From the IMG/VR virus record IMGVR_UViG_3300033273_000613, positions 1 through 64,000 of that record: a stretch of 64,000 nt of DNA. One strand, 5' to 3'. Positions 1 through 24,000 of this stretch are shown piece by piece. A program made the position numbers and the translations under genes. Position 1 is the stretch's first letter, and every line of letters starts with the position of its first letter. The notes beneath the pieces were generated by a model. It did no database searches, had not been told where the DNA came from, and worked only from the letters and a program-made list of their open reading frames with translations. Source of the DNA: a virus.

Positions 1-77
1 TTACTTGGTGTTGTTGATGGTGTATTTGTATATGTTGTTGTGGTAGTTGGAGTAATAGATGGTGTTACGGAAGGTGT
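1..77 (-). repeat. Exact direct repeat, copy at window edge
   Basis: These 77 bases are identical to 817-893, at an offset of 816 bases, which preserves the reading frame. Both copies encode Thr/Pro linker. The repeat may extend left of the window. Confidence 0.9.
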
Positions 78-3000
78 CTGCGAACTTGTAATCGAAGGTG
101 TTACTGTTGCAGTTTGTGTAGGACACGGAGTACTAGGTTCTTCTGTTTCACATTCAGACAACGTAATATAAAGATCATCATATGGAATTTCAACCCAATA
201 GGATTGATATGTAGTATCACCAGTGATTTTGAAACATGTGGTAAAATAGAAAAGTGCTCCCCAACTAATTCCGTCATCAGGAATGTTAAAATAAAATACG
301 TTACCTTCAAATGATGAACCTGGACAATCAATAATAGCACCAACAGTCTTATATACTATTGGTTTTGTTTGAGTCGGGGTAGCACTATTAGTAGGTGTAG
401 GAGTAATACTTTCTGTAGGTGCCGGTGTATTTGTTGGTGTAGGAGTTGGACACTGAGATGCTATTATATTTTGATTAGCACAATCAATACAATCAGTATA
501 TAAGTTTGGAACTAAATATGATAAATTACTTACCGGTACAGTAGCTTCATCAACGAGTTCATAACATTGTCCTTCGTATACTACAAAATAAGTGTTACCT
601 GTGATATCAAGTCCCGCATCTGAAAGTACAATTGTAGTTCCATCACCAGGACAACACGACTCAGCAATATATCTTGATACATTTTTAGTTGGTGTGACAG
701 TAACTGAACTTGTTGGTGTTAAAGTATTAGTCTGAGTCTGACTAGGTGTTATAGATAACGTTAATGTCGTAGAAGGTGTAACTGACTGTGTATTACTTGG
801 AGTATTAGTTGGGGTATTACTTGGTGTTGTTGATGGTGTATTTGTATATGTTGTTGTGGTAGTTGGAGTAATAGATGGTGTTACGGAAGGTGTAAATGTA
901 GGGGTAATAGATGGTGTTACTGAAGGTGTAGCTGACTGTGTATTACTTGGAGTAATAGATGGTGTAACAGTATTCGAAGGTGTTATCGAAGATGTAGGTG
1001 TAGGTGTTTCAGTAGCAGTACTAGTTGGTTCGGGGGTTGCTTGTGAAGATTTAGACGGAGTTGGTGTCGGGGTATTTGTTCTAGTATTACTTGGTGTTGG
1101 TGTATTTGTCTGAGTATTTGTAGGAGTTATTGATGGTGTATTAGTCGGCGTATTCGAATTGGTAATAGTATTGGTAGGAGTTATTGATGGTGTGACTGAA
1201 GGTGTAAATGTAGGGGTGATAGATGGTGTGACAGTTTGTGTATTAGTCGGTGTTTGTGTATTAGTAGGTGTAATACTACTTGTTGGTGTAACACTATTTG
1301 TTGGAGTATTACTTACTGTTGGTGTATTAGTAGGTGTTTCAGTATTGGTCGGTGTTTGTGATGATGTTACAGTGTTTGTAGGTGTACTAGTAACTGTTTC
1401 AGTTGGGGTTGGTGTACAGTAGTGACCAGTCGCGTTATAACAGAATACACAATTTTCGTAAACAGTGGTTATAATTGGGAGATCTCCCTGTTGTACATAT
1501 GGACCTTCGGTAGCTCTCCAACATCTTCCATTATATTCGAAAGATTTATTACCATTCACATCTACAAGATCAATAGTATCAACAAAGAAATGGAACGAAG
1601 CTGTCTCACCATCACAGCAACTTTCACACTTATAGAGTTCTAAATATTTAGTCGAAGTAAGTGTAGTTGTTGGTGTTGGAGTAGTTGTATTTGTATTAGA
1701 AGGTGTATTTGTTGGAGTTTCTGTAGGTGTAGTAGTTTGTGTTGGTGTTGGAGTTTTTGTTATACTTGAAGTTGGTGAAGGTGTGAAACTAGCAGTAACT
1801 GTTGGACACGGTGTCGTCGCATTTACTGAACCACATGATTCTGAATCTAAATATAGATTTTCAAATCCAACTTGAATTGCATATTCGTTGAAAGGAGCAT
1901 TACCGTTAAAAATGGTCCAACAATTGAATACATAATATATTGACTGATAGTTTATACCATCATCTGGTATATTGTATGGTATAAAATTATCTCCATATCC
2001 AGAACAATCAAGTCTAGCATATACTGTTTTGTAAGTAATAGCAGCGGTATTAGTTGGTGTATTACTTACAGTAGGCGTCTGTGTCGATGTTTTTGTTATC
2101 GTAGGTGTTGGGGTTTGGGTAGGTGTTTCAGTTATGGTCTGTGTTGGAGTTTGAGTAGTTGTGGGTGTAAATGAAGCTGTCGGTGTAGTTGGTACATATC
2201 CGTAGCAACCAACAGTATTACATTCGTCAACAACTTCAATTGATTCATATGTTCTTAAACTTCCACTAGCAACTGTTTCTGAATCTACATATGTGAAGCA
2301 GTTATTGTCGTCATTATTGAAAGTTGGGTAATCTATAAATCCTCCATGAACAACTTTTATAACTTGACCAACAGGTCTAAATTCTATTATATTGGTTCCA
2401 AAATTTGTAAATTGAATAAAAGTACCTGGTAATTGACATGGTTCACAGTACTGACTATGACATTCTTCACTTTCAGATGCTTTACATTGTTCACTACCTT
2501 CAGGTCCATAATAGTTAAAAATAAAGTCACTCTGTTCGGGAACAAATGCAAGATTCAATGACGTTATTACAAAACACTTGTATAATTTACCATCTTTTGT
2601 TACACCGTTTTCAAGAGAAATCGTATCACCTACTTGAAGGGTATCTGTTATTTCATCAGGTACAAATAGAGTTCTATTTGCAGTTACCACAGTACCGTTA
2701 GTTCCGGGACAACACGCTGTAAGTCCAACGTCTATACCATCAATTCTAAATGGTGCCTTGGGTAATAAAGATCCAGGTCTATTAGTTGGAGTATTAGTTA
2801 TTGTTACCGTCGGAGTGATAGTAGTTGTTAGAGAAATAGTCAAAGAAGGTGTTACAGTGACTGTTTTTGTTACAGTTGGAGTGTTAGTAACTGTATTTGT
2901 ATTTGTTGGTGTGTAGGTATAAGTCGTTGTTGGTGTAAGAGTAAATGTTGACGTAACTGTTGGTGTTGGTGTGGGTGTATAAGTTGGACATGGTACTGTC

Positions 3001-6000
3001 TCATCATCACTCAAGCATATAGTACATGTATTTTCACCTTCTACGTGTACAAATGCTATCGGATAAAAATCTAAGTCACTTAATACTACCCTTAAAATTT
3101 CAGTTATTACATAACAACTATTTTGTATTCTAATTACATCGTCAACTTGAGCATTGTTAGAAGTATTTACTAGTTGTTGACTTACAGTATTTCCTCCTAA
3201 TTTTGTTGTACAACAACTCTTAACGACTACTGTTCTAAGTCCGTTTGTAGGTGTAGGTGTTTGGGTTGGTGTTATCGATTTGGTTGGTGTTATTGATGGT
3301 GTCTGAGTTGTAGTTGGTGAATTTGTAACTGACGTAGTAACAGTAGGTGTTGGCGTTGGACCTGGATTAGAAGCTATACATGTAGAACAACTACCTGAGT
3401 AACTTTCATTTACTACAAATACATCATTCGATAATATAGATGGTAGTTGTGTGATTATTGTGAAACACTGTCCCGAATAATCACCGTAATTTACAACACC
3501 GACATCACCTATACTATTTGAACTCAGAGTCGTAGCGGTGAGAACTACACCATTACCATAACAATCTTCAATTATACACCCTATGTAATTGTAAACTGGT
3601 GAGGCAGTATTTGTAGAAGTAACTGTCGGTGTCGTTGTATTTGTTGGAGTATTAGTAGGTGTTTGTGTCGATGTACTTGTCGGAGTTTGAGTAAGAACAC
3701 TAGTATTAGTGGTTGTATTAGAAGGTGTATTTGATGGTGTCTGGGTATTTGTTGTAGTTGGTGTTGAAGTTGGACAAGGAGTAGTTGACGAGTCTAAGAA
3801 ACAAGTGTCACAATCCGCAAAAATTTCACCGTATATAAACTCATAACTTTCATTGTCATTTACAAAATATTTTGTTATATAATAACACTCATTTCCATAT
3901 TCAAATGTTTGACCTTCTACAACTGTATTCGGCACATTAAAGAAATATGTCTGACTACCACCACAACACTTAAAGGCTATTATTGATGTTGCATTTACAC
4001 CTAGAACAAGGTTTTTAGTCGTAGTGACAGTTTGTGTAGGTGTAATCGTAGGTGTTGTAGTAGGTGTTGTTGTACTTGTTGGGGTTTGTGTATTTGTAGG
4101 TGTACTAGATAATATTGGTGATTTAGTTACGGTCTTAGTTGGTGTTATAGTGGTAGTTGGTGTTACTGTTAGTGTATTTGTTACTGATGGAGTAACTGTT
4201 GGTGTTTGTGTTTGTGATGGGGTTTGTGTTGGTGTAGGTGTCTTAGTTAATCCTGGAGTGGCGGTCAATGATTTTGTTGGGGTAATACTTTGAGTATTAG
4301 TCGGTGTAACGGTATTCGTCGGTGTTACTGATGGTGTAACTGTTGCACTAATACTTTGTGTTGGAGTAACAGAAGGTGTTACCGTAGCAGTACTAGTAGG
4401 ACAATTACAATCTGAACAACTAGTAGCACCTTCTACGATATTAACCCCGATTGGATTACTAACATAATCAACTTTTTCTTCTACTGTATAACAGAATGTA
4501 CCATCACTCACAATAGAACCTACAGTGACAGTTTTTGGTGTGATCCTAGCAAATTCTGTATATTCATTACAACAATTATCAATTCTCCAATATTCGTAAG
4601 GTATTGTCGGAGTGACCGATACTGTTGGACTATTTGTTGGGGTAATACTAAGTGTTGGTGTTAGTGTTGGAGTAACTGATGGTGTTACTACTGGCGTTGC
4701 CGATGGACAAGTATTCTCACTAATACACTCTGTTGCTCCTGTATAATTAGTCAGAGAATAATATTGATAAGAAGTGTCATAAGTACCAGTATCTATAGTG
4801 ACTTGATAACACACACCTGAAATCAAAATTATAGATTCAGAACCAACACTGGTACCTTCATTCATGTTAACATATTGTGGTTCACCTATTGGTGTACCAC
4901 TCTGATCTTCACATAAAGGTAATGCTAAATAAGTTCTTAGATTAGGTGTAGTTGTTGGTGTAGGAGTACTGGAGTTTGTAACTGAAGGTGTATTAGTTAA
5001 TGTCGGTGTAGTTGTTGGAGTTGTGGTTACGGACTGAGTAGGGCTTGGTGAAACCTCAAGAAGTGCATTCCTCGAATTAATATAACTTGGGTCATCTAGA
5101 TCAGGCACAAATGCTTGTCCACAAGTACCACCACCATTTTGTTCATTACAAATATAACAATTAGGACTATCATTATCTTGTAACCCATAGTTGAAATTAG
5201 TTAGTTTGTATAGTCCTGGAAAGTAAAATCCTAATGGGAATGGAACTTCTACTACATACCAACATGGTGAATCTGAATCTGAAGGATCTGTCGATACACC
5301 TATTGGGAAATTACCAACACCAATACCTGAAACACCTCCGTATGATTCTATTATCTCAGTCTCAACTAAGAACAATTTTGCCAATCCATCACAACAATTA
5401 ACAGCCGCAACTACTCTGAAAAGTTGTGTCGGTGTCGGTGTCGGTGTTCTAGTTTCAGTTGGTGTGAAAGTTGGAGTCTGGGTCTGTGTAGGTGTCTGTG
5501 TAGGTGTCTTAGTCTGAGTAGGTGTCTTAGTCTGAGTAGGTGTTTTAGTATTAGTAGGTGTTGGTGTTTGTGTTCTAGTTTGTGATGGTGTTTGTGAATT
5601 AGTTGGTGTTTGTGTTCTAGTTTGAGTAGGACATGGTGTTCCAACAAAATCACTACATTCGGGTAAATTATCATGGAATGGTCCAGTATAAGTAGGGTAG
5701 AAAAGATCTGTTTCAACAACATTAGTCACTTCGTAACAGTTTCCATCTAACGATACGAAACTACCAACAATCTCACTATTATAAGGGACTCTTAATAAGA
5801 TAATTGAATTTTCAAGTCCAGGACAAGTATCTGTACATTCAATAGTAATCCATTGTAATGTAGGTGTTGGTGATAGTGTTGGTGTAGGAGTTTTTGTTGG
5901 AGTTTGTGTTTGAGTTGGAGTTTGAGTTGGAGTTTGTGAGTTTGAGGGTGTCTGGGTACCAGGATCACAAACTAAATCATTACAAGAATTGGCGTATTCA

Positions 6001-9000
6001 TAATCTTCTATAGATACAACAGAGTAGTTACTATTATATTCAATAAATGTACCACATGAATCCCAGCTAGATAATATTTCAGAGAAACTAATTACTGTAC
6101 CTATAGGTTCTACAACCTGTTCACCATTAACATAAATTGTAAATATTTGACCTGAAGTACACCCTTGAACTGTAACACTATCGCAGTTTTGATTCAGGTT
6201 CAATGCTAGTCTACATGCGTTACAATCAATACTAAATGAAGCGGTTTCAACTGTAGCACCAGGTGGAATTACAACTGAATATGATAATACTTGCCAACAT
6301 GTTGACGGATATGAAGGAACACTAAATGTTTCAAGATCTTGATTTGGAACGTAATTATCGAGTACAAAACTTTCAATAATCTGTTCACCTAATACTGTAT
6401 TACAACAAGCAATTGCCTCTACCAATATAATACTTTGTGTTGGAGTTGTTGTCGGTGTCGGTGTTTTTGTTGGGGTCCTAGATTGAGTAGTGGTCGTGGT
6501 TGGTGTAGGAGTAAAACTATTTGTTGGTGTGTTAGAATTTGTAGGTGTTTGAGTTGGAGTTTGTGAGTTTGTAGGTGTAAATGATGCTGTTTGTGTGGGA
6601 CAAGGCGTAACATCTTCAGAGCAATCACAACTATTATGGAAATTATCGGGTGATAGATAAGGAGCCGCAATTAGGATTGGTGCATACTCTATTATCTTAT
6701 AACAAGTACCACTTATATTAACGTGAGTACCTAAGTTCACTATTAATTCGTCACCACATCCAATATTAAAGAACAATGAAGTCGTAGTACCATCACAACA
6801 GTCTTCTAAACCTAATAACCAACTATTACAAGGATAATTTACAGGTGCAGTACATGTAGTACAATCTTCAAAATCATAACTTAGATATATACCATCTTCA
6901 CCATTTCCACCTATCGAAGATGCAAAGAAACAACAGTCATCAATGACAAAACATTTATTATCATCAACCCAACTTAAGTTTTGACTATGAATTCTTATTT
7001 GTTTTTCAATTGTTTCTGAACAACAATCTTTAACAATTATATTAACTTCACTTAATGAACTTGTCGGTGTTGGTGTCTGTGTAGGTGTTTCTGTTTGTGT
7101 AGGTGTCTGTGTCTGTGTAGGCGTTTTAGTTTGAGTAGGAGTCTTAGTTGGAGTTTCAGTTTTAGTTGGTGAGTTTGTGACTGTCGAAGTTTGTGTAGGT
7201 GTTTGTGTCTGTGTAGGAGTCTGAGTATTACTAGAAGTTGGTGTTTGTGTTGGTGTTTGAGTTCTAGTTTGTGTTGGACTTGCTCCAGGAGTTAAAGAAC
7301 TACTGGGTGTCGGCGTGAAAGTAGGTGTAGTAGTATTTGTAGGTGTTTGAGTCTGTGTTGGTGTTTGTGTTTGTGTTGGTGTTTGTGAATAAGTTGTGGT
7401 TGGTGTCTGTGTTGGAGTTTGAGTCCCAGTCTGTGTTTGTGTCTGTGTAGGCGTTTGGGTTTGAGTCGGTGTTGGTGTTTGAGTTGGTGTCTGTGTAGGT
7501 GTAAAGGATGCTGTTTGTGTTGGCGCATTACACAAACTTGATTGACATGATTCTACATTAGTAACATATAATGAGTAGAATGTACTATCTATTGGTGTCT
7601 CATCTAATGGAATTATAATGTCAGCTTGAGTTGAATCAGGAACTGGATAGAAACAGAATGAATCCAGACTATTGAGGGTTTCTTGACCAAACCAATCATC
7701 TCCTTCATTTAATGATATATTATAAAGATCAATGAAATAATATTGTTGTTCTATACCATTACTAAACTGTAATAGATTTGCAGATACACCATTTTGTGAA
7801 CTTACAATTACATAAACTAATCCTGTCTGACAGCTTACTAATTTTCTAGACTTACAGTTTTTGTTATTTTCTTGTTTACACTCATCACAATCATCATAAT
7901 GAGTAACGTTATTCCAAATCACATCTATACTATTATCTTGAACTTGTAACGGAGTATCTAGATAATAACACTTGAAGTTGTAAAGGAATGACTGACCTTG
8001 TTGCGGGATATTATCAAACGTATAACCAATATTTAAATCAGTAAATGTACCGTCAGGATCACAACATTGTTTTAATCTCCAGACTTGTGTAAACTTAGTT
8101 GGAGTATTACTAACAGTCTGTGTAGGAGTCTGCGTTAGTGTTGGTGTAGGCGTTTGTGTTTGTGTTGGACACGGTACTAGTTCATTACAACTAGGACAAT
8201 CTTCAGAAAACTGAGATATACTACTTATTATTTCATCGTATACTGGTCCTCCAACAGAATCAACAAAAGAGACATTTTCAATAGAATAACAATATTGTCC
8301 ATCACCAAAATCGTATAGATAGGTTGAATAATCATTGTACGGCCAATTCTCTTCTAATCCGTCAATACCTAATGGACCACACGGAATTACAACATTAATA
8401 TTACCAAAGATACCACCTGATTCATCACAACAACTACCAAGTGCCAGTTCCCAAATAGAACATTTATAACCCCCGATCAGTCTAGACGCCTTACAATTTG
8501 CAAAATCCCAATTTTCTCTAAATTCGTATTCATCAAGTGAAGTTGGTACTTGTGCTCTAAATTTGAAAGCGCATCCATTAATAATATAAACTCTCCCATT
8601 TTCAGATACATCTTGTAATTGATCGGCTGGAATTTTTATTTTTTCAGGAATAGTACCAGTGCAACAGTCAGTCAACTCTATAGTGACTGGTAATTCTTCA
8701 GGTTCAACATCATCACCACAATCACATACTTCGTTATCACATAAAAATGGAATAACATCATCGAAGGTACCAAATGAAGGTGTCTGACTAGATAAGTTAG
8801 TGTCTAAAAAGTAACAGGTTTCACCAACAACAACACCATCACCTTCTTGAATTTCTATTAATGTGTTTATTTCTACATTAATTGCGGTTCCACCACAACA
8901 AGGTACTGCCGCAACTATTTCATATTCTGGTTCTGGTGGAGGACATGGATCAATTAATTCTGTACATTCATCACAACCATTTTCGAAATATACATCAACA

Positions 9001-12000
9001 TAATCATATATACTATTTTCGTTGAGTGCCGTCTGGCTTGGGTTAAATCTCCAACAAGTATCGTCATACTCTACAGCTACAAAATCAGTTAATAACGACC
9101 AATCTTCAGGATAGTTTAATTTTACTGTTTGTTCAAGATCACAACATTTTCTAAAAGTTCCAAGTCTGTAAATAGTTGGTGGTGGAGGGGTATATCCACA
9201 TTCTTCATGTTGACCACACTCTGATATACCAAAATTAAATGCGGGATTAAATGCTAGTACTACTACTACCTCTGGTTGAACACCACTAGGTACTATTGAA
9301 GCTTGAATACAAGTATCTTCATCCTTTATATTTACGGTATCAATATTTCCAAGGGTAGGTGGTTGTTGTACTATACCGAATTTGGAGACTACCGTTCCAA
9401 GAGGTTCTTGGATAAATCCACCACCAGATTGTAGTAGAATGTAGTAATCACCACTATTACATCCTCTAAATGTCGCAACTTCACATAAACTATCGATCGT
9501 ATGTGCCTCATCGATACATTGTGAACAATTGGTATAATCATTAAGGGCAACCTTGAATTGAACATTTGGTACAGGTTGTTCATCGGATATCTCGATTACA
9601 CTTACACATCTTATATCACCAACAATTACCCCGTTTTCTACACCATCGCAAATCGTATAACTATTAGCATTATCTGGTGGAGCTTGACCTGTTGATGGAT
9701 TTACATAAAAACTAAGGGCTACCCAATATGGGGTTGCAAATGTACCATTAAATTCTGGACAACAAGGTTGAATTTTGTAATACTTGATTTCACATAATTG
9801 TGAACATTCATCTTCGTTACAAAACTCACATGATGTAAATGAATTAGGATGGAAAATTAATTTATTATTTTCAATGATCCCAACATTTAATTGTTGTAGG
9901 TTTGTAACATTACCCCAATATGATGTTGTAACATCTTTAATACAAACTCCATAAACATCACCACAAGAACTATTATATTCAGGTGTTGGAATGTTTAAAA
10001 TTGATTGTAATGTCGACCCAATCGAATGAATTTGTGCAACGTTACCAAAAGGTGGATAATTTTGGAAATACTCTTCATTAGCATTTGTTATATCTAATAC
10101 AAATATTTCACCAGTACAACATACCTCTATTAATCTATATTGTAATACTGGTGCCAATTGACACTGAGGTGTCCCGTCATCATTGTATTGAATATTATAT
10201 TCTTCTCCTTGAATAATAGTACTCCAGTTTGGTCCGTATTGATTCGTGATACTAAAAGCAAACTCACATATTGAATCGAATCCTGCAGGTACCTGTTCAG
10301 GTCTATAGTGAATAGGCCAGTAACCGATCGGCCCATTAGAACTTGTTTGATCTACATATAAGTGTTTTGGATCATAAGCAAATGTGTTCGGTATCGGGGG
10401 TGCACCTTGTTCTTCTAAATCGTCTAACCAAGTTAAAATATTATCAAAATCAAAGATGATTGAAGATTCAGTATCTACTGATAAATTATTAGAATTTCCA
10501 TAAAATAAATTAGTATAACTTGGATCGTACTCACCAACAAAACCACCATAAGTCATCAGAGCGTGTTGTATTCCAACATTTTCACCAGATTGTATCCATG
10601 GTGGTAGTTCAATCCCATAAGTACTACTTATTAATTCCTCAACCTGACTTTGATTTTGAAGTGTTGAATTGATGAAATCTGCACCATATTGAAGAATATA
10701 AGGATTCTTCATTAGGAATACCGTATTGACAGGATAATTGATTATAAAGTCATATGATACGTTAACGTACCACCACTCTGGAAAACATTCAGATGATCCA
10801 CCATCATCAATGTCTCTACCTGCAGTTCCTGGACATAAAACCTCTTCATATATTTCAGGACAACAAAATTTGAATCTGACAAGTACCCTTCTTAATTCCC
10901 ATGGTTGTAGACAATTACATAAAGGTAAAGGATTAGTTGTACTCTCCAATAATCCAGTACCAAGACAATTATCAGGGAAAGAGAACGGTTGACTTATACC
11001 ACCGTAATCAATACCAAATTCTTCTAGATACTGCCAATTCCAAAATCCTGGAGCATCTGGAGTATACTGTAAATAAACAAACTTTGTGGGATTCAAGTCA
11101 TCACCACAATTTATTGGAGTATAAGACCCTTGAACTATTTTATAACAATTGATGTCTTGTACAGTATCAGTTTCCGTACTTATGGAGTACTCTATATTAT
11201 CTTGGAAAGGGAAAGGTATATCTACAATGTCGATATCAATATCGGTATATGTATACTGGAAGTCACCATAAGCAACGACTGTCGCACCACTTAAGAAGTC
11301 TATTTCATTTTCGAATAATAAATAAGAATATTGACCGGGTTGTTGATTGAAAAATGTATTAAAATTATTGTATAACTGAAGTGGACTTAAATCTTGGTTT
11401 TGTGCAAGTAACCCATATGCTTGTTCAGGTGTTACATAGACAAAAACATTTTCTATTATATTGTTATCTTCACTACAACAAGACTGTAAATTTACTTGAT
11501 AAGTTAAAAGTGGGTATTGATAACATTCGGGATTACTGTTCGGTGTTATACATACTCTAGCTAAGAAATCTTCGTAATTATTTTCACCAAAGTCCGTGGT
11601 ATTACCCACAATAATACCTGAAACATATAATTGTGTTGGTGTTGGATCACTAGGTGATGAACCCATCCAAAAGGCTTCCTGTTCCCAAATATCAATCTGT
11701 GCTTCAGTGACTGAATTGATTAATCTGATAGTCTGGAACCCATTTTGTATTATAGTTGATAAGAAATCATAGTTGTCATTTCCATTCAAATCATATCTGT
11801 TAATCCTAATCCCCATAGGAGATTCTAATTCACCTGTAAATGAAAGAACTGCATTATCACTCAAAAATACACCAACTTTACCTGGTTGGGTATCTGTAAA
11901 ATCTCCACCCCATACTACTTCGTAATCAAAACATTGAACATCACTTTGAGGTGACGGGCAAATGTTTTGTTGAGTTTCTTGTACAACATTTCCTGTTTGA

Positions 12001-15000
12001 TATAATAACTTATAAAGTACATCATATATATTGGCTATTCTGACAAACGGAAGACTTTCTAATTCCCATGGGTAAAAATACTGGGTTGTTGCATATGGTC
12101 GACCAGTTATACAACAAGAAATCCCTGCGAAATTATCATCATTTTGAGTACCAAAATCTAAAATTTCAGTGTTAAATACACCAAAATAATTAGAATATAC
12201 ATTTGGAGTTGCAGGTGTTGCCGAATTAATATTAGGACAATCTTGAATTGTTAATACTTCTTGATTAAAAATATTTATTAATTGGAATCCCTCTAGTGTT
12301 TCGCCTCTAGCAGTTTCATCATCAATACCATCTTTAGTGTACTGATACACTGGTGTAATTCTATTAAAACCTAAACCTACTTGAATTACAGGTATTTTAG
12401 ATCCGTTATACGTTGGATCACCATATGCACATGATTTTCTATATGTCCTTTTATCACTGTAAGATGTTGGGGTATCACTAGGATCTACACCACAACCATA
12501 ATTACCACTCGGTGGTTCACCCATAACAACTTTAGGTAAATCAGCCCTGTGGATTGGAATAGATCTTACACATGTGTAACCAGAATAATTTTCAGTCCAG
12601 GCACCACCATCTTCAACAGCAATGGGGCCAGTTCTATATTTAAAACTCTTATAGTTACCAACAACATCTCGTGTTGCACCTGGTTCTAGGTAAATAAAAT
12701 CAGTAAACCCATTTGGACCATCATCATCTGTCCAATAAACTTGTAAACCAGCAACGTGCTCCCAATACAAGAAGGTTTCATTAAAGAAGTTTCCATTTGG
12801 TGAAGGCTCATTCGAACCCGGAGTAGGATATCCACTCCAAGTCGCATCACCGGGTACTGTAAAATCTAAAACAAGCGGTTGACCTAAAGTGTTATTATAA
12901 TACTCACTCCATCCATTACCTGTTTGGGTATTATCGAAATCCCAGTTAAGTGGGGTTGGTCCATAAACATTAATTAATATTTGATCATTACAACTACAAT
13001 CATTCGAAAAATCAAAAAATGGTTCAGCACAATCTTGATACGTTTTCGCCCTGTGCGGGAATACCGAACCTAAACCAAACTTAGATCCGTTAGATCTAGT
13101 ATTAACCTCTCCTTTAAGACCCTGGTACTCCCAGATACCTGGATTATAGGCCTTTGAGTGAGGTGTAAGAACTGATCCAAAATTTTCGTCTAGTAAAACA
13201 CCAAAAGGAACTCCATCTGGTGTACCATCAGCAGGTCCAAAATTGTATTCATAAAGTGGACCTCTAGCACCTGTTCCCTCATAATTTGTATAGTACTCCC
13301 ATAAATTATCACAATACCCATAGTCATTACCATTTGGTCTCGGTAATTTGTCAAATCCATCAACGTTGTTGTATGCACATGCAGGTATAGATAATTTATA
13401 AGTTGTTGGTTTTCTATCACCAGACCCTAACCAACCATTTACAAGTGCATAATTGTTTTGAATTGTCCAACCAAAGTTATTACCATTGAAGTCAAAATCA
13501 TTAAATTGCTGTATTACCTCACCATTTTCGTTCAGGTTTGGTCTTCTATCTGAACCTCTACCTCTTTCATTCCAAATATCCGACCATATATGATAAAAGT
13601 TTCCTGAGTTACATCCTTGGAAATACTCGTAGATACACTCACCTCCAAACCAAGGAGCTTCTTGTCCAGTGTCACCTAAAGGTAACTTACTTAACGTATC
13701 GTCACAATTTTCACCTGTAGTTAATATATTAAAATGAAGTGGTGAATCTATGAAAAATGTAGAAATATTTGTAACTTCAACCAATCTCCAAAGACCACTG
13801 AAGTCAGATCCGTAGGAGACACCATCCTGTGTTATTTGCGCTTCACTTGAAAAATATCCACCCTCATTCTGTATTTGTTCGATTTGTTCCGCAGTTGCAA
13901 ACCTATAAGTTTGTAACTTACCTTCACAGTTATATGAATCTCTATCAAAACCAAAATAATTACCTTCTGGTCCATACATGGAATCGGGATCACATTGACA
14001 ACAATGTTCTACAACTATGACTGTTCTTTCTTCTCCACCAGCCGTCGTTAAACTTAAACATGCGTTTGATATTCCATCACCACACGGTTCAATATAACAA
14101 TTCCCGTAGTAGTTATTGACTGGGAGTACACAAGTATTACTTCCACATAATTGTTCAAATATAATATCGTAAACTTGTTCAAATTTAAACTCTGGACCAT
14201 CATTTATTATGATATTTTGAATTTGATTTTCTTCAAATTCATCAACAAAATAAGTGAAACAACCTTCAAATTCTTCGGGAGTCAATGAATCTGAATCATC
14301 TGTCAGATCTATACTAGTAGAGAAAAATTGACAAGTACGTCCAAATAGATCCCATCCACCACCATTACTAATATCACTAGAAGGCATTTCATATTGAAAA
14401 TCAGTAAATGCTAGGTTACTTGCCCAATATGGACCATTAGGTTTATAATCAATATCTTTGATTACTATGTATTGATCATTTGTCGAAGTAGAATATCCAT
14501 TTACTTTGAACCTGAAAAGTCTGCCAGTCACACAAGATCTCCACACATTAAATCCTCTACATCTCGGACTTGTGAAATTTTCGTCATAATCAACAAAAGG
14601 ATTTTGATCATATGGATTTTCAATAATTGGATATTCAACATTCGTAGTCTGATAAGGATCAATTGTTGTTGCCTCTAAAACAGTTTCGTATAAACCGTAA
14701 AATCTGGATCCATTAAGGGTCCCAAATGGTGCACCAAATGTACCTACCCAAAATGACGATGTTCCATATGGTCCGTAGTATAATGGACATTCAATAGCAT
14801 TCCAGGCTGATTGGTTATTTAAACCTTCATCAACATAAGTCGCATTTATATAATTCGCACTTACTACGTCTAATATCTCTACAGGTATACCGTCAACTCG
14901 GGTATACTTACATGTTAGATCACCACTACCATCATTTAACCCATTAATTTGTAAAACTTCTTCTAAAGATAAAGTTTCACCCCAACTCAAAACTTTAACA

Positions 15001-17165
15001 AGTAACTCAGTATCTTTCGGTACTATTTGATCATCTTCTATTTCACCAGACCCACTGTATGTATTAACATCACATAAAAGTCTTACTTTAACATATGGCT
15101 CATTCGGTTCAACATCTGGACAACTATAGACAGGTGGTTGTGAGAAATATTGAATCGGTGTACATCCTCCTCCAGCACAGTAATTATATACACTATTTCC
15201 ATCAGCATCTTCTTCCCAATCACCAGTAAAATTCCATTCACCAACTTCGTACACATTATAATACTCATAAGCGACACCGTTGTAGAATGCTTGAACTAAA
15301 TTTGGTTCAATAGGAAAATCAAATTCTTGTTCATTCCATATTACTGTCATCTCATCTGAAGGTAGATACAAAGTTTGAGGAACTATGTACGGTATATATC
15401 GTAATTCATATTCTACTCCATTGATTTCAAAGTCATTATATCCAGGATTTAATCCAGACTCAGTGTAAGGTAATCCCTCTTGATCTTTTACCGCTAAGTC
15501 AGTACCCCCAGCGGGGATTGCTGCTGTTACAAAACCACCACCATTAATTAGACCATCAAAACTGGTATCATAATATGTTTTTAACCAGTGATCAAGTGTC
15601 CAATTAGAAGCTGCATTCTCGTTATAATAGGACTGTAATGGATATACATCTGAAAAGGCTTGATATAAAACTTGTGATCCCTCACCTACAGCGTCCCTAA
15701 CCTCAAAAAACCAGTGTAATTTATAACATCTATTAAAATATGTTAATGTATCTGGTTGATTCATAAACCCAACTTGGTAGGTATAATCATACTTATAATT
15801 AATCAACCTATTCCAAGATAAAGCACTAAATGCACCTGCTAAGTGATCAGGATTTACAAATGGTGGTTCATTACCTTCACTAACTGGTCCATCCCAGTCA
15901 AGCCAATCAAGGTAGTTATTACTATAAGGAAACCATCCAAGATTTGGAGAATTAGGTAGAGGATTCGATGAATTATAAAAACCTGTTATATCACCGATTG
16001 GATCACCCAAAAAGTTCCATATGACTTTGGGTTTTGTATTATCATTTTGGACATGACAGAAAAAAGGTAATTGTCCAGAAAGATTAGGATCATACTCACC
16101 AAACGGATTAGTATAAAAACTATTACATGGACCTAAAATATTATTCTCTATACCACCAGGTTGAGAGTTACTACAATCAGTGAGAATCGCATAACCTCTA
16201 TAGAATTTGTCGTGCCATTGCCAATCAGTTAAATCGTAATCATTCAACATTTTTTGATTACGAGCAATTCCTAAAGGAGGATATTGGGTTTTACAATTAT
16301 TGTTTTTAGGATTTGTGAAATCTTCTTCATAAGTCCTACAACCAGATCCTTGTATTAAAGAGGGTTTGTCGTCTGATATAACACCTGGTAGATCAAGATA
16401 ATCTGTTTTTTCACTAGATGGTGAATAACCAAGTGATGTAAATGCAAACTTATCATAATCTGTTGGTAGTGAGATACCTAATGGATTATCTTTATTTTCT
16501 GTATACTCTGGTATCTCACCGTTGATATCAGTGATAGTATAACAAGTACTAATTTCAACCTCTTCACCAGTTATCGAATCCCTCGTTGTTTCTCTGACGA
16601 TCCATTTATTACCCCAGTAAAATCTAGGATGAATCGTATATTCCCCGTTTTCTTTTTCTACATAATCAAAGTTGAAATCAAATTCATTGAATTGATCAAA
16701 ACCATAGAAATTAAAACTTGTCTGATTATCCTCAACATAAGTCCACTTTTGTTTACCCTCAGCATTCCACATTGGAGGTAAACTCGGGTGAGGTGCACCA
16801 AAAATAAACTCTTCCTCTGAACCTATAGGGTAAAACTTATAGGTTGGGTCATCACCTTCACCCCAAAAACAGTTTCTTAACTTTACACCGTAGTCATATT
16901 TTTCCGATGTAATATTTTTCTCCGAAGTTTCAGGTATATCTTCAACCCCATTAAGTACAATACAAGTCTGACAATCCGCATATACCGGAATATTAGTGAC
17001 ACTCAATTGGGCTGTGTCTGATTCCTCATCAACAACCCAACATTTTTCATTATAAAAAAAGTATTTACCAACTTCAATGTCAAAAGCAAACTCAAAGTTA
17101 GCAGTACCTCCCGTGACTACACAATTTGAATTTACAATTGAACATTTCCGTCTATAAAGTGCCAT
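1..17165 (-). CDS. Giant Cys-module / Thr-Pro-linker protein, C-terminus outside window
   Basis: One frame is open from the ATG at 17163-17165 to the left edge, 5,721 codons; an in-frame stop at 17178-17180 fixes this start. Residues 1 to about 2,990 are aromatic-, Asn- and Cys-rich with CC and CxxC pairs and almost no Thr/Pro linkers. From about 2,990 onward, Cys modules (a CC pair, a central C[YWF], a late CxxC, a final Cys before PTPT) alternate with Thr/Pro/Gln/Asn strings, the longest about 245 codons. I see no signal peptide, catalytic motif or membrane segment. It follows two glycan-modifying genes and is probably a virion fibre or surface adhesin. The module matches no family I recognise, so function is inferred from composition and from its place in a phage tail region. 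It could also be a non-structural secreted protein. Confidence 0.9.
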   Translation of the reverse strand, partial: MALYRRKCSIVNSNCVVTGGTANFEFAFDIEVGKYFFYNEKCWVVDEESDTAQLSVTNIPVYADCQTCIVLNGVEDIPETSEKNITSEKYDYGVKLRNCFWGEGDDPTYKFYPIGSEEEFIFGAPHPSLPPMWNAEGKQKWTYVEDNQTSFNFYGFDQFNEFDFNFDYVEKENGEYTIHPRFYWGNKWIVRETTRDSITGEEVEISTCYTITDINGEIPEYTENKDNPLGISLPTDYDKFAFTSLGYSPSSEKTDYLDLPGVISDDKPSLIQGSGCRTYEEDFTNPKNNNCKTQYPPLGIARNQKMLNDYDLTDWQWHDKFYRGYAILTDCSNSQPGGIENNILGPCNSFYTNPFGEYDPNLSGQLPFFCHVQNDNTKPKVIWNFLGDPIGDITGFYNSSNPLPNSPNLGWFPYSNNYLDWLDWDGPVSEGNEPPFVNPDHLAGAFSALSWNRLINYKYDYTYQVGFMNQPDTLTYFNRCYKLHWFFEVRDAVGEGSQVLYQAFSDVYPLQSYYNENAASNWTLDHWLKTYYDTSFDGLINGGGFVTAAIPAGGTDLAVKDQEGLPYTESGLNPGYNDFEINGVEYELRYIPYIVPQTLYLPSDEMTVIWNEQEFDFPIEPNLVQAFYNGVAYEYYNVYEVGEWNFTGDWEEDADGNSVYNYCAGGGCTPIQYFSQPPVYSCPDVEPNEPYVKVRLLCDVNTYSGSGEIEDDQIVPKDTELLVKVLSWGETLSLEEVLQINGLNDGSGDLTCKYTRVDGIPVEILDVVSANYINATYVDEGLNNQSAWNAIECPLYYGPYGTSSFWVGTFGAPFGTLNGSRFYGLYETVLEATTIDPYQTTNVEYPIIENPYDQNPFVDYDENFTSPRCRGFNVWRSCVTGRLFRFKVNGYSTSTNDQYIVIKDIDYKPNGPYWASNLAFTDFQYEMPSSDISNGGGWDLFGRTCQFFSTSIDLTDDSDSLTPEEFEGCFTYFVDEFEENQIQNIIINDGPEFKFEQVYDIIFEQLCGSNTCVLPVNNYYGNCYIEPCGDGISNACLSLTTAGGEERTVIVVEHCCQCDPDSMYGPEGNYFGFDRDSYNCEGKLQTYRFATAEQIEQIQNEGGYFSSEAQITQDGVSYGSDFSGLWRLVEVTNISTFFIDSPLHFNILTTGENCDDTLSKLPLGDTGQEAPWFGGECIYEYFQGCNSGNFYHIWSDIWNERGRGSDRRPNLNENGEVIQQFNDFDFNGNNFGWTIQNNYALVNGWLGSGDRKPTTYKLSIPACAYNNVDGFDKLPRPNGNDYGYCDNLWEYYTNYEGTGARGPLYEYNFGPADGTPDGVPFGVLLDENFGSVLTPHSKAYNPGIWEYQGLKGEVNTRSNGSKFGLGSVFPHRAKTYQDCAEPFFDFSNDCSCNDQILINVYGPTPLNWDFDNTQTGNGWSEYYNNTLGQPLVLDFTVPGDATWSGYPTPGSNEPSPNGNFFNETFLYWEHVAGLQVYWTDDDGPNGFTDFIYLEPGATRDVVGNYKSFKYRTGPIAVEDGGAWTENYSGYTCVRSIPIHRADLPKVVMGEPPSGNYGCGVDPSDTPTSYSDKRTYRKSCAYGDPTYNGSKIPVIQVGLGFNRITPVYQYTKDGIDDETARGETLEGFQLINIFNQEVLTIQDCPNINSATPATPNVYSNYFGVFNTEILDFGTQNDDNFAGISCCITGRPYATTQYFYPWELESLPFVRIANIYDVLYKLLYQTGNVVQETQQNICPSPQSDVQCFDYEVVWGGDFTDTQPGKVGVFLSDNAVLSFTGELESPMGIRINRYDLNGNDNYDFLSTIIQNGFQTIRLINSVTEAQIDIWEQEAFWMGSSPSDPTPTQLYVSGIIVGNTTDFGENNYEDFLARVCITPNSNPECYQYPLLTYQVNLQSCCSEDNNIIENVFVYVTPEQAYGLLAQNQDLSPLQLYNNFNTFFNQQPGQYSYLLFENEIDFLSGATVVAYGDFQYTYTDIDIDIVDIPFPFQDNIEYSISTETDTVQDINCYKIVQGSYTPINCGDDLNPTKFVYLQYTPDAPGFWNWQYLEEFGIDYGGISQPFSFPDNCLGTGLLESTTNPLPLCNCLQPWELRRVLVRFKFCCPEIYEEVLCPGTAGRDIDDGGSSECFPEWWYVNVSYDFIINYPVNTVFLMKNPYILQYGADFINSTLQNQSQVEELISSTYGIELPPWIQSGENVGIQHALMTYGGFVGEYDPSYTNLFYGNSNNLSVDTESSIIFDFDNILTWLDDLEEQGAPPIPNTFAYDPKHLYVDQTSSNGPIGYWPIHYRPEQVPAGFDSICEFAFSITNQYGPNWSTIIQGEEYNIQYNDDGTPQCQLAPVLQYRLIEVCCTGEIFVLDITNANEEYFQNYPPFGNVAQIHSIGSTLQSILNIPTPEYNSSCGDVYGVCIKDVTTSYWGNVTNLQQLNVGIIENNKLIFHPNSFTSCEFCNEDECSQLCEIKYYKIQPCCPEFNGTFATPYWVALSFYVNPSTGQAPPDNANSYTICDGVENGVIVGDIRCVSVIEISDEQPVPNVQFKVALNDYTNCSQCIDEAHTIDSLCEVATFRGCNSGDYYILLQSGGGFIQEPLGTVVSKFGIVQQPPTLGNIDTVNIKDEDTCIQASIVPSGVQPEVVVVLAFNPAFNFGISECGQHEECGYTPPPPTIYRLGTFRKCCDLEQTVKLNYPEDWSLLTDFVAVEYDDTCWRFNPSQTALNENSIYDYVDVYFENGCDECTELIDPCPPPEPEYEIVAAVPCCGGTAINVEINTLIEIQEGDGVVVGETCYFLDTNLSSQTPSFGTFDDVIPFLCDNEVCDCGDDVEPEELPVTIELTDCCTGTIPEKIKIPADQLQDVSENGRVYIINGCAFKFRAQVPTSLDEYEFRENWDFANCKASRLIGGYKCSIWELALGSCCDESGGIFGNINVVIPCGPLGIDGLEENWPYNDYSTYLYDFGDGQYCYSIENVSFVDSVGGPVYDEIISSISQFSEDCPSCNELVPCPTQTQTPTPTLTQTPTQTVSNTPTKFTQVWRLKQCCDPDGTFTDLNIGYTFDNIPQQGQSFLYNFKCYYLDTPLQVQDNSIDVIWNNVTHYDDCDECKQENNKNCKSRKLVSCQTGLVYVIVSSQNGVSANLLQFSNGIEQQYYFIDLYNISLNEGDDWFGQETLNSLDSFCFYPVPDSTQADIIIPLDETPIDSTFYSLYVTNVESCQSSLCNAPTQTASFTPTQTPTQTPTPTQTQTPTQTQTQTGTQTPTQTPTTTYSQTPTQTQTPTQTQTPTNTTTPTFTPTPSSSLTPGASPTQTRTQTPTQTPTSSNTQTPTQTQTPTQTSTVTNSPTKTETPTKTPTQTKTPTQTQTPTQTETPTQTPTPTSSLSEVNIIVKDCCSETIEKQIRIHSQNLSWVDDNKCFVIDDCCFFASSIGGNGEDGIYLSYDFEDCTTCTAPVNYPCNSWLLGLEDCCDGTTTSLFFNIGCGDELIVNLGTHVNISGTCYKIIEYAPILIAAPYLSPDNFHNSCDCSEDVTPCPTQTASFTPTNSQTPTQTPTNSNTPTNSFTPTPTTTTTQSRTPTKTPTPTTTPTQSIILVEAIACCNTVLGEQIIESFVLDNYVPNQDLETFSVPSYPSTCWQVLSYSVVIPPGATVETASFSIDCNACRLALNLNQNCDSVTVQGCTSGQIFTIYVNGEQVVEPIGTVISFSEILSSWDSCGTFIEYNSNYSVVSIEDYEYANSCNDLVCDPGTQTPSNSQTPTQTPTQTQTPTKTPTPTLSPTPTLQWITIECTDTCPGLENSIILLRVPYNSEIVGSFVSLDGNCYEVTNVVETDLFYPTYTGPFHDNLPECSDFVGTPCPTQTRTQTPTNSQTPSQTRTQTPTPTNTKTPTQTKTPTQTKTPTQTPTQTQTPTFTPTETRTPTPTPTQLFRVVAAVNCCDGLAKLFLVETEIIESYGGVSGIGVGNFPIGVSTDPSDSDSPCWYVVEVPFPLGFYFPGLYKLTNFNYGLQDNDSPNCYICNEQNGGGTCGQAFVPDLDDPSYINSRNALLEVSPSPTQSVTTTPTTTPTLTNTPSVTNSSTPTPTTTPNLRTYLALPLCEDQSGTPIGEPQYVNMNEGTSVGSESIILISGVCYQVTIDTGTYDTSYQYYSLTNYTGATECISENTCPSATPVVTPSVTPTLTPTLSITPTNSPTVSVTPTIPYEYWRIDNCCNEYTEFARITPKTVTVGSIVSDGTFCYTVEEKVDYVSNPIGVNIVEGATSCSDCNCPTSTATVTPSVTPTQSISATVTPSVTPTNTVTPTNTQSITPTKSLTATPGLTKTPTPTQTPSQTQTPTVTPSVTNTLTVTPTTTITPTKTVTKSPILSSTPTNTQTPTSTTTPTTTPTITPTQTVTTTKNLVLGVNATSIIAFKCCGGSQTYFFNVPNTVVEGQTFEYGNECYYITKYFVNDNESYEFIYGEIFADCDTCFLDSSTTPCPTSTPTTTNTQTPSNTPSNTTTNTSVLTQTPTSTSTQTPTNTPTNTTTPTVTSTNTASPVYNYIGCIIEDCYGNGVVLTATTLSSNSIGDVGVVNYGDYSGQCFTIITQLPSILSNDVFVVNESYSGSCSTCIASNPGPTPTPTVTTSVTNSPTTTQTPSITPTKSITPTQTPTPTNGLRTVVVKSCCTTKLGGNTVSQQLVNTSNNAQVDDVIRIQNSCYVITEILRVVLSDLDFYPIAFVHVEGENTCTICLSDDETVPCPTYTPTPTPTVTSTFTLTPTTTYTYTPTNTNTVTNTPTVTKTVTVTPSLTISLTTTITPTVTITNTPTNRPGSLLPKAPFRIDGIDVGLTACCPGTNGTVVTANRTLFVPDEITDTLQVGDTISLENGVTKDGKLYKCFVITSLNLAFVPEQSDFIFNYYGPEGSEQCKASESEECHSQYCEPCQLPGTFIQFTNFGTNIIEFRPVGQVIKVVHGGFIDYPTFNNDDNNCFTYVDSETVASGSLRTYESIEVVDECNTVGCYGYVPTTPTASFTPTTTQTPTQTITETPTQTPTPTITKTSTQTPTVSNTPTNTAAITYKTVYARLDCSGYGDNFIPYNIPDDGINYQSIYYVFNCWTIFNGNAPFNEYAIQVGFENLYLDSESCGSVNATTPCPTVTASFTPSPTSSITKTPTPTQTTTPTETPTNTPSNTNTTTPTPTTTLTSTKYLELYKCESCCDGETASFHFFVDTIDLVDVNGNKSFEYNGRCWRATEGPYVQQGDLPIITTVYENCVFCYNATGHYCTPTPTETVTSTPTNTVTSSQTPTNTETPTNTPTVSNTPTNSVTPTSSITPTNTQTPTNTQTVTPSITPTFTPSVTPSITPTNTITNSNTPTNTPSITPTNTQTNTPTPSNTRTNTPTPTPSKSSQATPEPTSTATETPTPTSSITPSNTVTPSITPSNTQSATPSVTPSITPTFTPSVTPSITPTTTTTYTNTPSTTPSNTPTNTPSNTQSVTPSTTLTLSITPSQTQTNTLTPTSSVTVTPTKNVSRYIAESCCPGDGTTIVLSDAGLDITGNTYFVVYEGQCYELVDEATVPVSNLSYLVPNLYTDCIDCANQNIIASQCPTPTPTNTPAPTESITPTPTNSATPTQTKPIVYKTVGAIIDCPGSSFEGNVFYFNIPDDGISWGALFYFTTCFKITGDTTYQSYWVEIPYDDLYITLSECETEEPSTPCPTQTATVTPSITSSQTPSVTPSITPTTTTTYTNTPSTTPS
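683..1417 (-). repeat. Long uninterrupted Thr/Pro linker block in the giant protein
   Basis: About 245 consecutive codons encode only Thr, Pro, Ser, Asn, Gln, Val, Ile and a few other residues, in a TPT-x-TPT rhythm with no Cys. The composition resembles mucin stalks and is expected to be extended and unfolded. It is the longest such block in this gene. Confidence 0.9.
817..893 (-). repeat. Exact direct repeat, second copy
   Basis: Identical to bases 1-77. The interval between the copies holds a complete linker block plus Cys modules, so recombination between them would add or remove an in-frame unit of 272 codons. Confidence 0.9.
7060..7525 (-). repeat. Thr/Pro/Gln linker block in the giant protein
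   Basis: About 150 codons of TQTPTQT-type sequence, richer in Gln than the linkers near the left edge. It separates two Cys-module groups and lies close to the junction between the linker-poor N-terminal half and the linker-rich C-terminal half. Confidence 0.85.
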
Positions 17166-21006: not shown

Positions 21007-24000
21007 TCATTTTTCAGGACTACTAAAACTATTAAAGAATTGTATACCATCACCTATATGAGCCAAACCATGATAATAAGATTCAAAATTAACAGTTGTG
21101 AATGGTTGAGTAATATTAATAGTTACATCACCATAGACAAACAAATACTCATTACCATCTATACCGTCTTTTAATCCTCTTTCAAATTGACCCGAATATG
21201 TGAATCCTGGTGTAAATCTATTATAGAATGCAATTGCGAAGTCTGCCTTTACATCTTTAATTGTAAATACTCCTAAACCAACCCCATATTCAGAATTGTA
21301 ACCACCACCATTAAATGAATATCTATATCCCTCATCACCAAATAAGATTCCAACTGTAGTACTAGTTGTTAATGGAATCACATTTGTTAATTGAGTCGGT
21401 GTCATACTAGGTGTCAAAGTAGGTGTTGGTGTCTGATTTGGTGTAGATGAAGGTGTTATCATATTTTCTTGATAATAAGTCGGTAAATAGTCATTACATG
21501 AGTCACAGTCTTCGAACTTGATTACATTGTCAAGATATTCATATCCCGGAATCTCACCAGGAATTTCTTCAATAACCCACCAACAATATAAATTATATAT
21601 GATTCTATCATTAACACTTAGATCACCACTAATATTTACTATCTCATAATTATTATTTTCACAGCTAAACAAGACATATGACTTATAACAAGAAACTTGT
21701 TCGGTACAAGTATAACAATTATTAAAATTAGTTTGATCAACATATTCATAACCAAAGAACGGACCAACAGCCAAACTTTCAAATAACTCATAACAACCAG
21801 CCTCACCAGTAGCTATTGTACCAACTGGTAAATATTCACTAGCATTTACATAAGTATATTCTGATGTACAACATGATTTAGCCAATCTTAATCTAAACGA
21901 AGGAGTTGAAGTTGGTGTTTTAGTAACAGTCACTGATGGTGTAGGTGTAACCGTTGGTCTTATAACCCTATTTGAACTATAACAAACATCGCAATCAGTA
22001 TACCAACTATTTACACTAGGAGCCTGATTATTTCTAGGAGATTCCAATTGCATAACTCGTTTGTAACAAGTTGAAGAATCCGGATCTTTAACAACACCAT
22101 TAACCGGGAAGTCAGCAACTATATTAAAATACTTGTACTTTGTGTCATCATCACAAGAAACACATAAATAATAGAGATATGAATAACGTGCCGCGGTTGT
22201 ACTAGCAGGTGTTCTTGTAAGTGTTTTAGTAGGTGTCAGAGTTGGTGTAGTAGTAGGTGTAGGTGTGAAACAGACATTATCATTCAAACAATCACTAATC
22301 GTATTTCCTGTAAAGTATTGTGGTGTAAATAGTTCCGTACCATTACCTCCATTTATTCCCACTAAAGTAACACATTCACCACTAAATACACCCACAATTC
22401 CAAAGTTAACTGGTATCTGAGCAACTGCACTGTAAATATTTCCACTACATATACCACTCAATTGTACTTTAACTAGGTTTGGTGTTGAAGTTGGTGTTGG
22501 TGTAATATCTTGTCTAGTTATCGATGGTGTTGGACTATTAGTAACTGTCGGAGTTGGGAACGGAGTCTTTGTAATTGTTTTAGTTGGCGTAGCAGTTGGT
22601 GTGACACTAGCTGTTGGTGTTGGTGTAACTCCATCACAAGTTAGATTATTCAATTGATAACATTGTGAACAGTTATCATAAGAATCAATTACATATGGAT
22701 ATATTGAATTTGAGTTACCACTAAATTGGAAGAATGGATCAGGAAGTTGTGTATAACAATCTGAATCATGATAGAATACTTTATACTCATCAGCAAAATA
22801 GTATGATTCAGGTACATTGAAGTAGTATAAGTCATTATAAGTGAGACCTGTCTGATCTGGTAGACAACAATTTTTAATAAACGCAGTCAAAATAAATCTA
22901 GTACTAGGACTTACAGTAGGTGTAAGACTAGATGTAATAGATGGCGTAGGAGTTGTCGTATTAGTTGGTGTTTGTGAAATTAATGGTGTTGGACATGGAT
23001 AATTTTCAGAACATTGAGTCAATCCTGTGAAATTAGTATTACTAGCATATAATTGATTAAAAGGTTCAATAGATGGTACTATTTGTAAAATAGTGAAACA
23101 CCGTTGAACTGTGTAAGTTAAATACGGGTAATCTAATATTACAATATCACCAACTTGTGAATTCTGACTAACATTACCTATTACATAATTGACTGGTGGA
23201 CAGTTTCCACTCAATGCTGCAATAACCCATTCCATTGACTTACTAGGTGTTGGTGTATTTGTTAATGATGTAGTAGGTGTCACTGATGGTATAAACGGAA
23301 CATTGGTAGGTGTCGGAGTAATCGACGCAGTTGGCGAATTCGAAGGTGTGTTAGTTGGTGTCAATCCCGGGGTAGCAGTTGTAGATGGTGTAATAACTGG
23401 GGTTGACGAATTTGTATTACTTGGAGTTACTGTTGTTGTACTTGTAACTGTATTTGTATTAGTTGGTGTTACAGTTCTAGTTGGTGTTACCGAAGGTGTC
23501 ACACTACTTGTAGGTGTATTAGTCGGTGTTGTTGTTGGTGTACTACTATTTGTAGGTGTAGGACTAATACAAGTATTTCCAGTAAATGTACATGGATAAA
23601 TTCCTGTGGCATATGAACTATTATAACCATCAGTAATATAAGTAAACAAAGTGAAACATTGTGCACTGAACCCAACAGTATCACCAGTTGTTAAACCTAA
23701 ATGACTACTAATGTTAACACCCGCATATGTTAATGAACATTCATCATAAGCAACCCATTGTACAAAATCCGGTGTCGGACTTAGTGTTGGTGTAGGTGTT
23801 AGGGAGGCATTAGGTGTAACTGTAACCGTAGGTGTCACAGTATTTGTCGGTGTATTTGTTGGTGTGTTTGTTGATGTTGGTGTATTGGTAGGTGTGGGTG
23901 TACTTGTCTGGAATGTAGTTTTAGTTATTGATGGTGTTGGTGTATTTGTAGGCGTATTAGAAGGTGTTGCGGTATTTGTTGATGTTGGTGTAGGCGTTTG

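Follow-up and report, generated by a model that had tools for sequence, protein, structure and literature searches.

A giant viral open reading frame of cysteine domains and Thr/Pro-rich linkers beside a PF11397 glycosyltransferase gene: a candidate mucin-like fibre protein

The giant frame and its genomic setting

The window, i.e. the whole 64,000-nucleotide stretch of DNA that was analyzed, comprises bases 1 to 64000 of a 71,688-bp virus record and contains 14 open reading frames (ORFs) of at least 150 aa, all of which are located on the minus strand (Table 1). The leftmost of these had been described preliminarily as a stop-free frame that runs from position 17165 to position 3, exceeds 5,700 residues, and leaves the left edge. 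This ORF is confirmed as real: it contains no stop codon, compared with 341, 737, 334, 302, and 478 stops in the remaining five frames of that DNA, where the longest open runs span 72 to 123 codons. The base composition predicts approximately 402 stops in the giant frame (log10 P of finding none, -180.9), and the maximum open run obtained in first-order Markov simulations (n = 100) was 161 codons versus the 5,721 seen. The third codon position is AT-rich along the entire giant ORF, with a G+C content of 15 to 21% in each 1,000-codon block. Because matches to a cysteine domain span residues 11 to 5672, a single reading frame is evidently kept over the length of the giant.

Table 1. Features of the window, with positions in window coordinates
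Feature	Position	Strand	Remarks
Giant ORF	3..17165	-	5,721 codons; ATG at 17163-17165; open at contig edge
Giant, C-terminal part as present (residues 2996-5721)	3..8180	-	16 linkers alternating with cysteine units
Giant, N-terminal region (residues 70-2461)	9783..16958	-	Without assignable relatives; preceded by a cysteine unit at residues 11-69
Edge repeat, copy 1	1..77		Identical to 817-893, which lies 816 bp (272 codons) away in frame
Edge repeat, copy 2	817..893		Second copy of the 77-bp repeat
TylF-type methyltransferase + HtrL_YibB domains, 803 aa	17218..19629	-	Directly upstream of giant
PF11397 GlcNAc-transferase, 422 aa	19638..20906	-	phrog_24687; proposed polypeptide O-glycosyltransferase
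2,340-aa giant	21007..28029	-	18 cysteine units, 14 Thr/Pro linkers
1,922-aa giant	28070..33838	-	7 cysteine units, 4 linkers, HExxHxxGxxH motif
1,503-aa protein	34533..39044	-	HExxHxxGxxH motif, no linkers
3,440-aa giant	39075..49397	-	11 cysteine units, 12 linkers
gp6-like baseplate wedge protein, 612 aa in all	62381..64000	-	Starts beyond window; phrog_219, Baseplate_J; marks structural block

The size of the product, also remarked upon as exceptional for a phage, is indeed rare but not unprecedented, as phage proteins of up to 7,694 aa have been published (PMC7162821). Those huge-phage proteins are likewise encoded by very long ORFs, and some are tentatively structural according to the same text, the likeness being one of length. 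The informative feature of the giant is rather its architecture of cysteine domains on Thr/Pro linkers, encoded beside a PF11397 glycosyltransferase, and it is one of four related giants in the window.

The earlier observations that the C terminus of the giant is missing and that repeats are involved at this ORF were both borne out. The window and the contig share their left edge, and the contig stops inside the giant gene, ending in an exact 77-bp repeat (Table 1). Repeats of this kind bring short-read assemblers to a halt, and 77 is a common SPAdes word length. As the contig ends in this repeat, the truncation is ascribed to a probable assembly break and not to biology, the ORF continuing past the contig. 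Two further exact repeats of at least 31 bp are present in the window, of 71 bp (45549 and 23950) and 36 bp (39886 and 5935), and, since these are the only others, collapse or expansion within the ORF away from the edge has little support. The 71-bp repeat is common to linkers of the 3,440-aa and 2,340-aa genes, which suggests recent recombination between paralogous linkers.

On the minus strand, the baseplate wedge gene is followed by six ORFs that match no family and then by the giants, which are thus located in a structural block near baseplate genes. To the right of the wedge gene, gp25-, ribonucleotide reductase-, DnaB-type helicase-, and UvsX-like ORFs were recognized by eye. The wedge protein shares 27 to 29% identity with its counterparts in Flavobacterium immuto phages, Microcystis phage Mel-JY01, and an uncultured huge phage; for phage immuto (Immutovirus), the identity is 26.8% over 99% of the protein. 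In immuto, genes annotated as tail fibre and tail spike come after the wedge gene, in the same order as the giants here. In contrast to the window, none of the ORFs in the immuto stretch examined reaches 20 aa of linker, and its genes downstream of the wedge gene have no match to the genes of the window.

Protein architecture and adjoining enzymes

The giant is modular, consisting of approximately 2,450 N-terminal residues followed by small cysteine domains which alternate with Thr/Pro/Ser linkers. Its 16 linkers, all from residue 2996 onward, total 1,264 aa and contain 504 Thr, 127 Ser, and 222 Pro residues, thus representing long tracts of mucin-like composition. The cysteine unit, a domain of approximately 65 aa with conserved cysteines that occurs both between linkers and without them, was captured in a profile grown from 32 seeds. 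Among the 65 profile rows, 10 with an iE of 0.01 or worse were left out of the count, and the 55 units at iE <0.01 are distributed over the giant (19 units) and the 2,340-aa (18 units), 3,440-aa (11 units), and 1,922-aa (7 units) proteins; 80 shuffled and 4 reversed proteins yielded no matches. The profile also matches 19 of 48 related records, while its alignment offered no stretch conserved enough for a scan of the collection. An AlphaFold2 model built with 43 window units (pLDDT 94.4, pTM 0.80) predicts five strands and a C-terminal helix. Fold searches returned no PDB relative at E ≤ 0.001 (best VIA Z 6.2, PriA) and none from BFVD (best E 2.6e-3), and the unit is, therefore, not assigned to any fold family.

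The first ~2,450 residues, the unit at residues 11 to 69 aside, have no relative in Pfam or PHROGs, and this region shows no similarity to itself or to other window proteins. Residues 1 to 1500 found no homologue in INPHARED, nor in IMG/VR by peptide patterns; the 2,340-aa giant likewise has no homologue in INPHARED. For the giant as a whole, no Pfam match was obtained at E 0.01, and the sole PHROG match was phrog_15511, a family whose function is not known. As none of the fibre or spike families of Pfam and PHROG gave a match, the giant is not filed in any of them. The SprB repeats (PF13573) of SprB-type gliding adhesins were found neither in the giant (E 0.01) nor in the 3,440-aa protein (searched at E 1), but are present in one ORF of a sister contig, G001 (E 3.1e-17).

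Upstream of the giant lies first the TylF/HtrL_YibB gene and, beyond it, the gene of the 422-aa enzyme, which matches the PF11397 profile with 237.3 bits (cutoff 21; E 4.3e-70). We take PF11397 to correspond to family GT60. All 34 phage enzymes in the alignment, and also those of phages XacN1 and RAS14, share D97-S98-H99 without variation, in agreement with the DxH metal-binding motif of polypeptide GalNAc/GlcNAc-transferases. A search of PDB sequences with the enzyme returned no match, and its AlphaFold2 model, built from 34 aligned sequences, is weak (pLDDT 64.9, with residues 124 to 199 and 206 to 242 below 50). The chains nearest to this weak model are GalNAc-T2 and its kin (6nqt_F, Z 13.1, rmsd 4.2, 233 aligned residues; by Foldseek, 1xhb, E 4.6e-5), with TarP/RmlT-type and other GT-A enzymes near Z 12, i.e. 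within approximately 1 Z unit.

GT60 includes Gnt1 of Dictyostelium and Toxoplasma and enzymes of Trypanosoma cruzi (PMC6939170, PMC9472816, PMC8724618), of which TcOGNT1 forms the GlcNAc-alpha-O-Thr linkage on mucin-like proteins (PMC9472816) and Gnt1 acts on hydroxyproline in Skp1 (PMC6939170). These characterized alpha-GlcNAc-transferases thus share both the PF11397 family of the window enzyme and a polypeptide acceptor, which is mucin-like for TcOGNT1, but they are eukaryotic, whereas the enzyme considered here is encoded by a phage; no assayed phage member of GT60/PF11397 was found in the open-access literature.

The YibB part was detected in 25 of 28 records, the other three being fragments of 17.6 to 35.6 kb fetched by their wedge gene. 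The companion enzymes differ, being of the TylF type here, a carbamoyltransferase in XacN1 and in locus L007, and GT25 in locus L013. Judged by frame length, the TylF domain is joined to the YibB part just in the window, being either absent or separate in 19 of 20 records with a frame of 543 to 643 aa.

Co-occurrence of the transferase with Thr/Pro-rich proteins

Relatives of the transferase are encoded by 445 viral stretches of IMG/VR, the best 80 of which by score, and hence not a random sample, were analyzed. An ORF was classed as Thr/Pro-rich if it contained 40 aa or more of linker; such ORFs account for 137 of the 1,208 ORFs in the best 80 transferase loci versus 2 of 599 in 80 wedge-gene loci. 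Where at least 400 bp of upstream sequence was present (76 loci), a Thr/Pro-rich ORF lies directly upstream of the transferase on the same strand in 43 and one ORF further upstream in 16 more, while 11 loci have none. De-duplication left 49 loci, of which the 42 with at least 1 kb upstream were used for the pairing test: a Thr/Pro-rich ORF occurs within two ORFs upstream of the transferase in 32/42 (directly upstream in 24) and is lacking in 10/42, compared with a mean fraction of 0.194 and a maximum of 0.381 for random same-strand anchors in the same loci (2,000 draws).

The slot of the giant, directly after the YibB gene, is occupied by a Thr/Pro-rich ORF in all five of the closest relatives (L003 to L007), and residues 3376 to 3524 of the giant match the slot proteins of L004, L005, and L006 (E 1e-15 to 8e-18). 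Gene order is kept in sister contig G001, whose transferase is 90%, YibB part 69%, and other neighbours 55 to 86% identical to their window counterparts, while its giants are 25 to 49% identical to those of the window in matched pieces. The slot protein of G001 comprises 2,574 aa, including 2,050 aa of linker.

Among the cultured phages of INPHARED, the transferase is encoded in three records only, XacN1 (46.7% identity), CM1 and RAS14 (45.2%), and the YibB part was found in the same three. In XacN1, the two proteins are ORF334 and ORF330 (38.4% identity), accompanied by a carbamoyltransferase, ORF333, and approximately 12 kb from the transferase lies a Thr/Pro-rich protein, ORF350 (L083, 1929-3890), which is 654 aa long, contains 252 aa of linker, and consists of 17.9% Thr and 11.5% Pro. 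Unlike the window giants, ORF350 is located among structural genes and does not adjoin the enzyme, and XacN1, with a genome of 384,670 bp, has a Gammaproteobacterial host. Although annotated as a hypothetical protein, it adjoins ORF351, annotated as a structural protein, near a head completion gene. At least two glycoproteins have been reported in the XacN1 virion, the glycan-bearing proteins being unnamed in the text available, and its authors suggest the two glycosyltransferases of the phage, one of which is ORF334, as the responsible enzymes (PMC5852040). ORF350 is a candidate for one of these glycoproteins. In the stretches of RAS14 examined, no ORF of at least 250 aa with 42 aa or more of linker was found.

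A GTDB scan for the transferase returned 24 bacterial loci, with Thr/Pro-rich frames close to the enzyme in L187 and L192 (Bacteroidota) and in L200, L207, and L209 (Proteobacteria); that of L188 is less sure, as a longer ORF overlaps it on the opposite strand. With all six frames read, the preset 40-aa threshold was reached by 13/24 transferase loci versus 5/17 control stretches, the latter drawn from just four source genomes, and an 80-aa threshold, picked afterwards, by 7/24 versus 0/17; one of these seven, L198, appears by eye unlike a Thr/Pro repeat. In a Saprospiraceae MAG (L187) and Jiulongibacter sediminis (L192), the transferase relative is encoded beside a divergent, Thr/Pro-rich, and apparently exported protein, possibly a bacterial version of the enzyme-substrate pair. 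Transferases 73% and 71% identical to that of the window occur in Saprospiraceae/Bacteroidia MAGs, and these, together with the SprB repeats of G001 and the Immutovirus relative, lead us to suspect a Bacteroidota host. No host is claimed, however, given that XacN1 and RAS14, the carriers in culture, infect Gammaproteobacteria and that none of the eight bacterial genomes tested contains a match to the wedge protein.

A proposed O-glycosylated fibre and its alternatives

The cysteine domain/Thr/Pro linker architecture, adjoining as it does a PF11397 gene, points to mucin-like O-glycosylation, and we consider it reasonably probable that the giant is a mucin-like protein of modular build in the virion of a phage with a contractile tail, acting as a baseplate adhesion fibre that is O-glycosylated by a dedicated PF11397 enzyme. 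Small cysteine-rich beta beads, putatively stabilized by disulphides, would sit along the Thr/Pro/Ser linkers, and, by analogy with the characterized GT60 enzymes, the PF11397 enzyme may start O-glycan chains on linker Thr/Ser residues (GlcNAc-alpha-O-Thr). The methyltransferase/YibB protein, or the carbamoyltransferase or GT25 enzyme of relatives, may then extend or cap the glycan. The glycosylated linkers would space the cysteine beads on a long fibre at the baseplate, the product being an extended, sugar-coated fibre bearing many binding beads. A broader proposal, which we advance only tentatively, is that mucin-type O-glycosylation is widespread in phages, the gene of a GT60-kind transferase adjoining those of its Thr/Pro-rich substrates in many uncultured phages, as well as in some Bacteroidota and Proteobacteria, and the products being giant glycan-brush fibres at the baseplate. 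Such a system would parallel the mucins of eukaryotes in phages and bacteria, its enzyme and substrate being genetically paired.

It is unlikely, in our estimation, that the giants are instead adhesion fibres with unmodified Thr/Pro spacers, the PF11397, YibB, and methyltransferase enzymes modifying something else, which might be the surface glycans of the host, as a defence against superinfection, the DNA of the phage, or a different protein of the virion. In favour of this alternative, companion enzymes such as TylF, carbamoyltransferase, and GT25 are also part of surface-polysaccharide pathways, and TarP/RmlT-type transferases are close in the fold comparison. Phage tailoring glycosyltransferases frequently target DNA or the host surface (PMC12619734). 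The transferase, however, accompanies Thr/Pro-rich phage ORFs more than controls do and also adjoins Thr/Pro-rich frames in two bacterial phyla, and the characterized members of its family modify polypeptides. A further variant retains glycosylation of the linkers but moves it to hydroxyproline, as by Gnt1 on Skp1, with linker prolines hydroxylated by phage or host before GlcNAc is added. Gnt1 is of the same family (PMC6939170), the linkers of the giant contain 222 Pro residues, and PF13640 oxygenases are present in records G003 and G023; but this family, the only one searched, was unmatched in the other 15 of 17 records, most of them fragments, including G000, G001, XacN1, and RAS14. As just 2 of 17 records, and neither XacN1 nor RAS14, encode PF13640, we regard a hydroxyproline acceptor as very unlikely.

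A similarly low probability attaches to the giants being secreted from, or displayed on, the infected host and not part of the virion, as bacterial counterparts beside the enzyme (e.g. L187), which by eye resemble exported surface proteins, and the lack of an assignable relative for the N-terminal region of the giant might suggest. Against this stand the position of the giants behind the baseplate wedge gene, on one strand within the structural block, and the fibre and spike genes that occupy the same place in Immutovirus. Least credible is that the giant's length is an assembly artefact, the true genes being shorter and their Thr/Pro repeats mis-joined or expanded. While the contig does terminate in an exact repeat and two giants are linked by another, the edge copy is the only exact repeat of 31 bp or more with both copies inside the giant ORF, the cysteine units all differ (12 to 29% identity to the first unit), and closed ORFs of 3,751, 2,890, 2,574, and 1,960 aa keep the same order in the separate contig G001.

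Virion glycosylation is itself already known in phages, as are giant phage proteins. Structural proteins of mycobacteriophage virions carry glycans (Freeman 2023, as cited in PMC12619734), located at the C termini of capsid and tail tube subunits, whereas the sites proposed here are extended Thr/Pro tracts within giant fibres. The XacN1 suggestion aside, no pairing of a GT60-type enzyme with Thr/Pro-rich phage proteins, giants included, was found in the open-access literature. If the proposed O-glycosylation is correct, a large group of phages from aquatic settings would have virions densely coated in sugar by phage-encoded enzymes, with a bearing on host attachment, protease resistance, and escape from recognition. 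It would provide a likely function for a glycosyltransferase present in the 445 viral stretches and would assign a role to the Thr/Pro tracts commonly dismissed as low-complexity sequence. PF11397 and the Thr/Pro repeats would constitute a clear enzyme-substrate pair open to in vitro testing.

Several further modules were observed in these proteins. Metzincin-like HExxHxxGxxH motifs are encoded at 28970-29113 and 38085-38180 on the minus strand, in the 1,922-aa and 1,503-aa proteins, whose matches to Reprolysin_5 and Peptidase_M10 are both sub-threshold; these proteins are possible virion metalloproteases. Slot proteins of relatives start with a Hint/intein-like module (L098, 2915-3514; L004 and L007, after the YibB gene), which the window giant does not possess. 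By eye this module has an HN-type end and no N-terminal cysteine, and Hom_end_hint matches are sub-threshold in L098 and L007, with none in L004. The 3,440-aa giant contains two inserted domains that are alike and, by eye, resemble vWA (residues ~506 to 900 and ~1572 to 1970), each of which is preceded by a partial cysteine unit.
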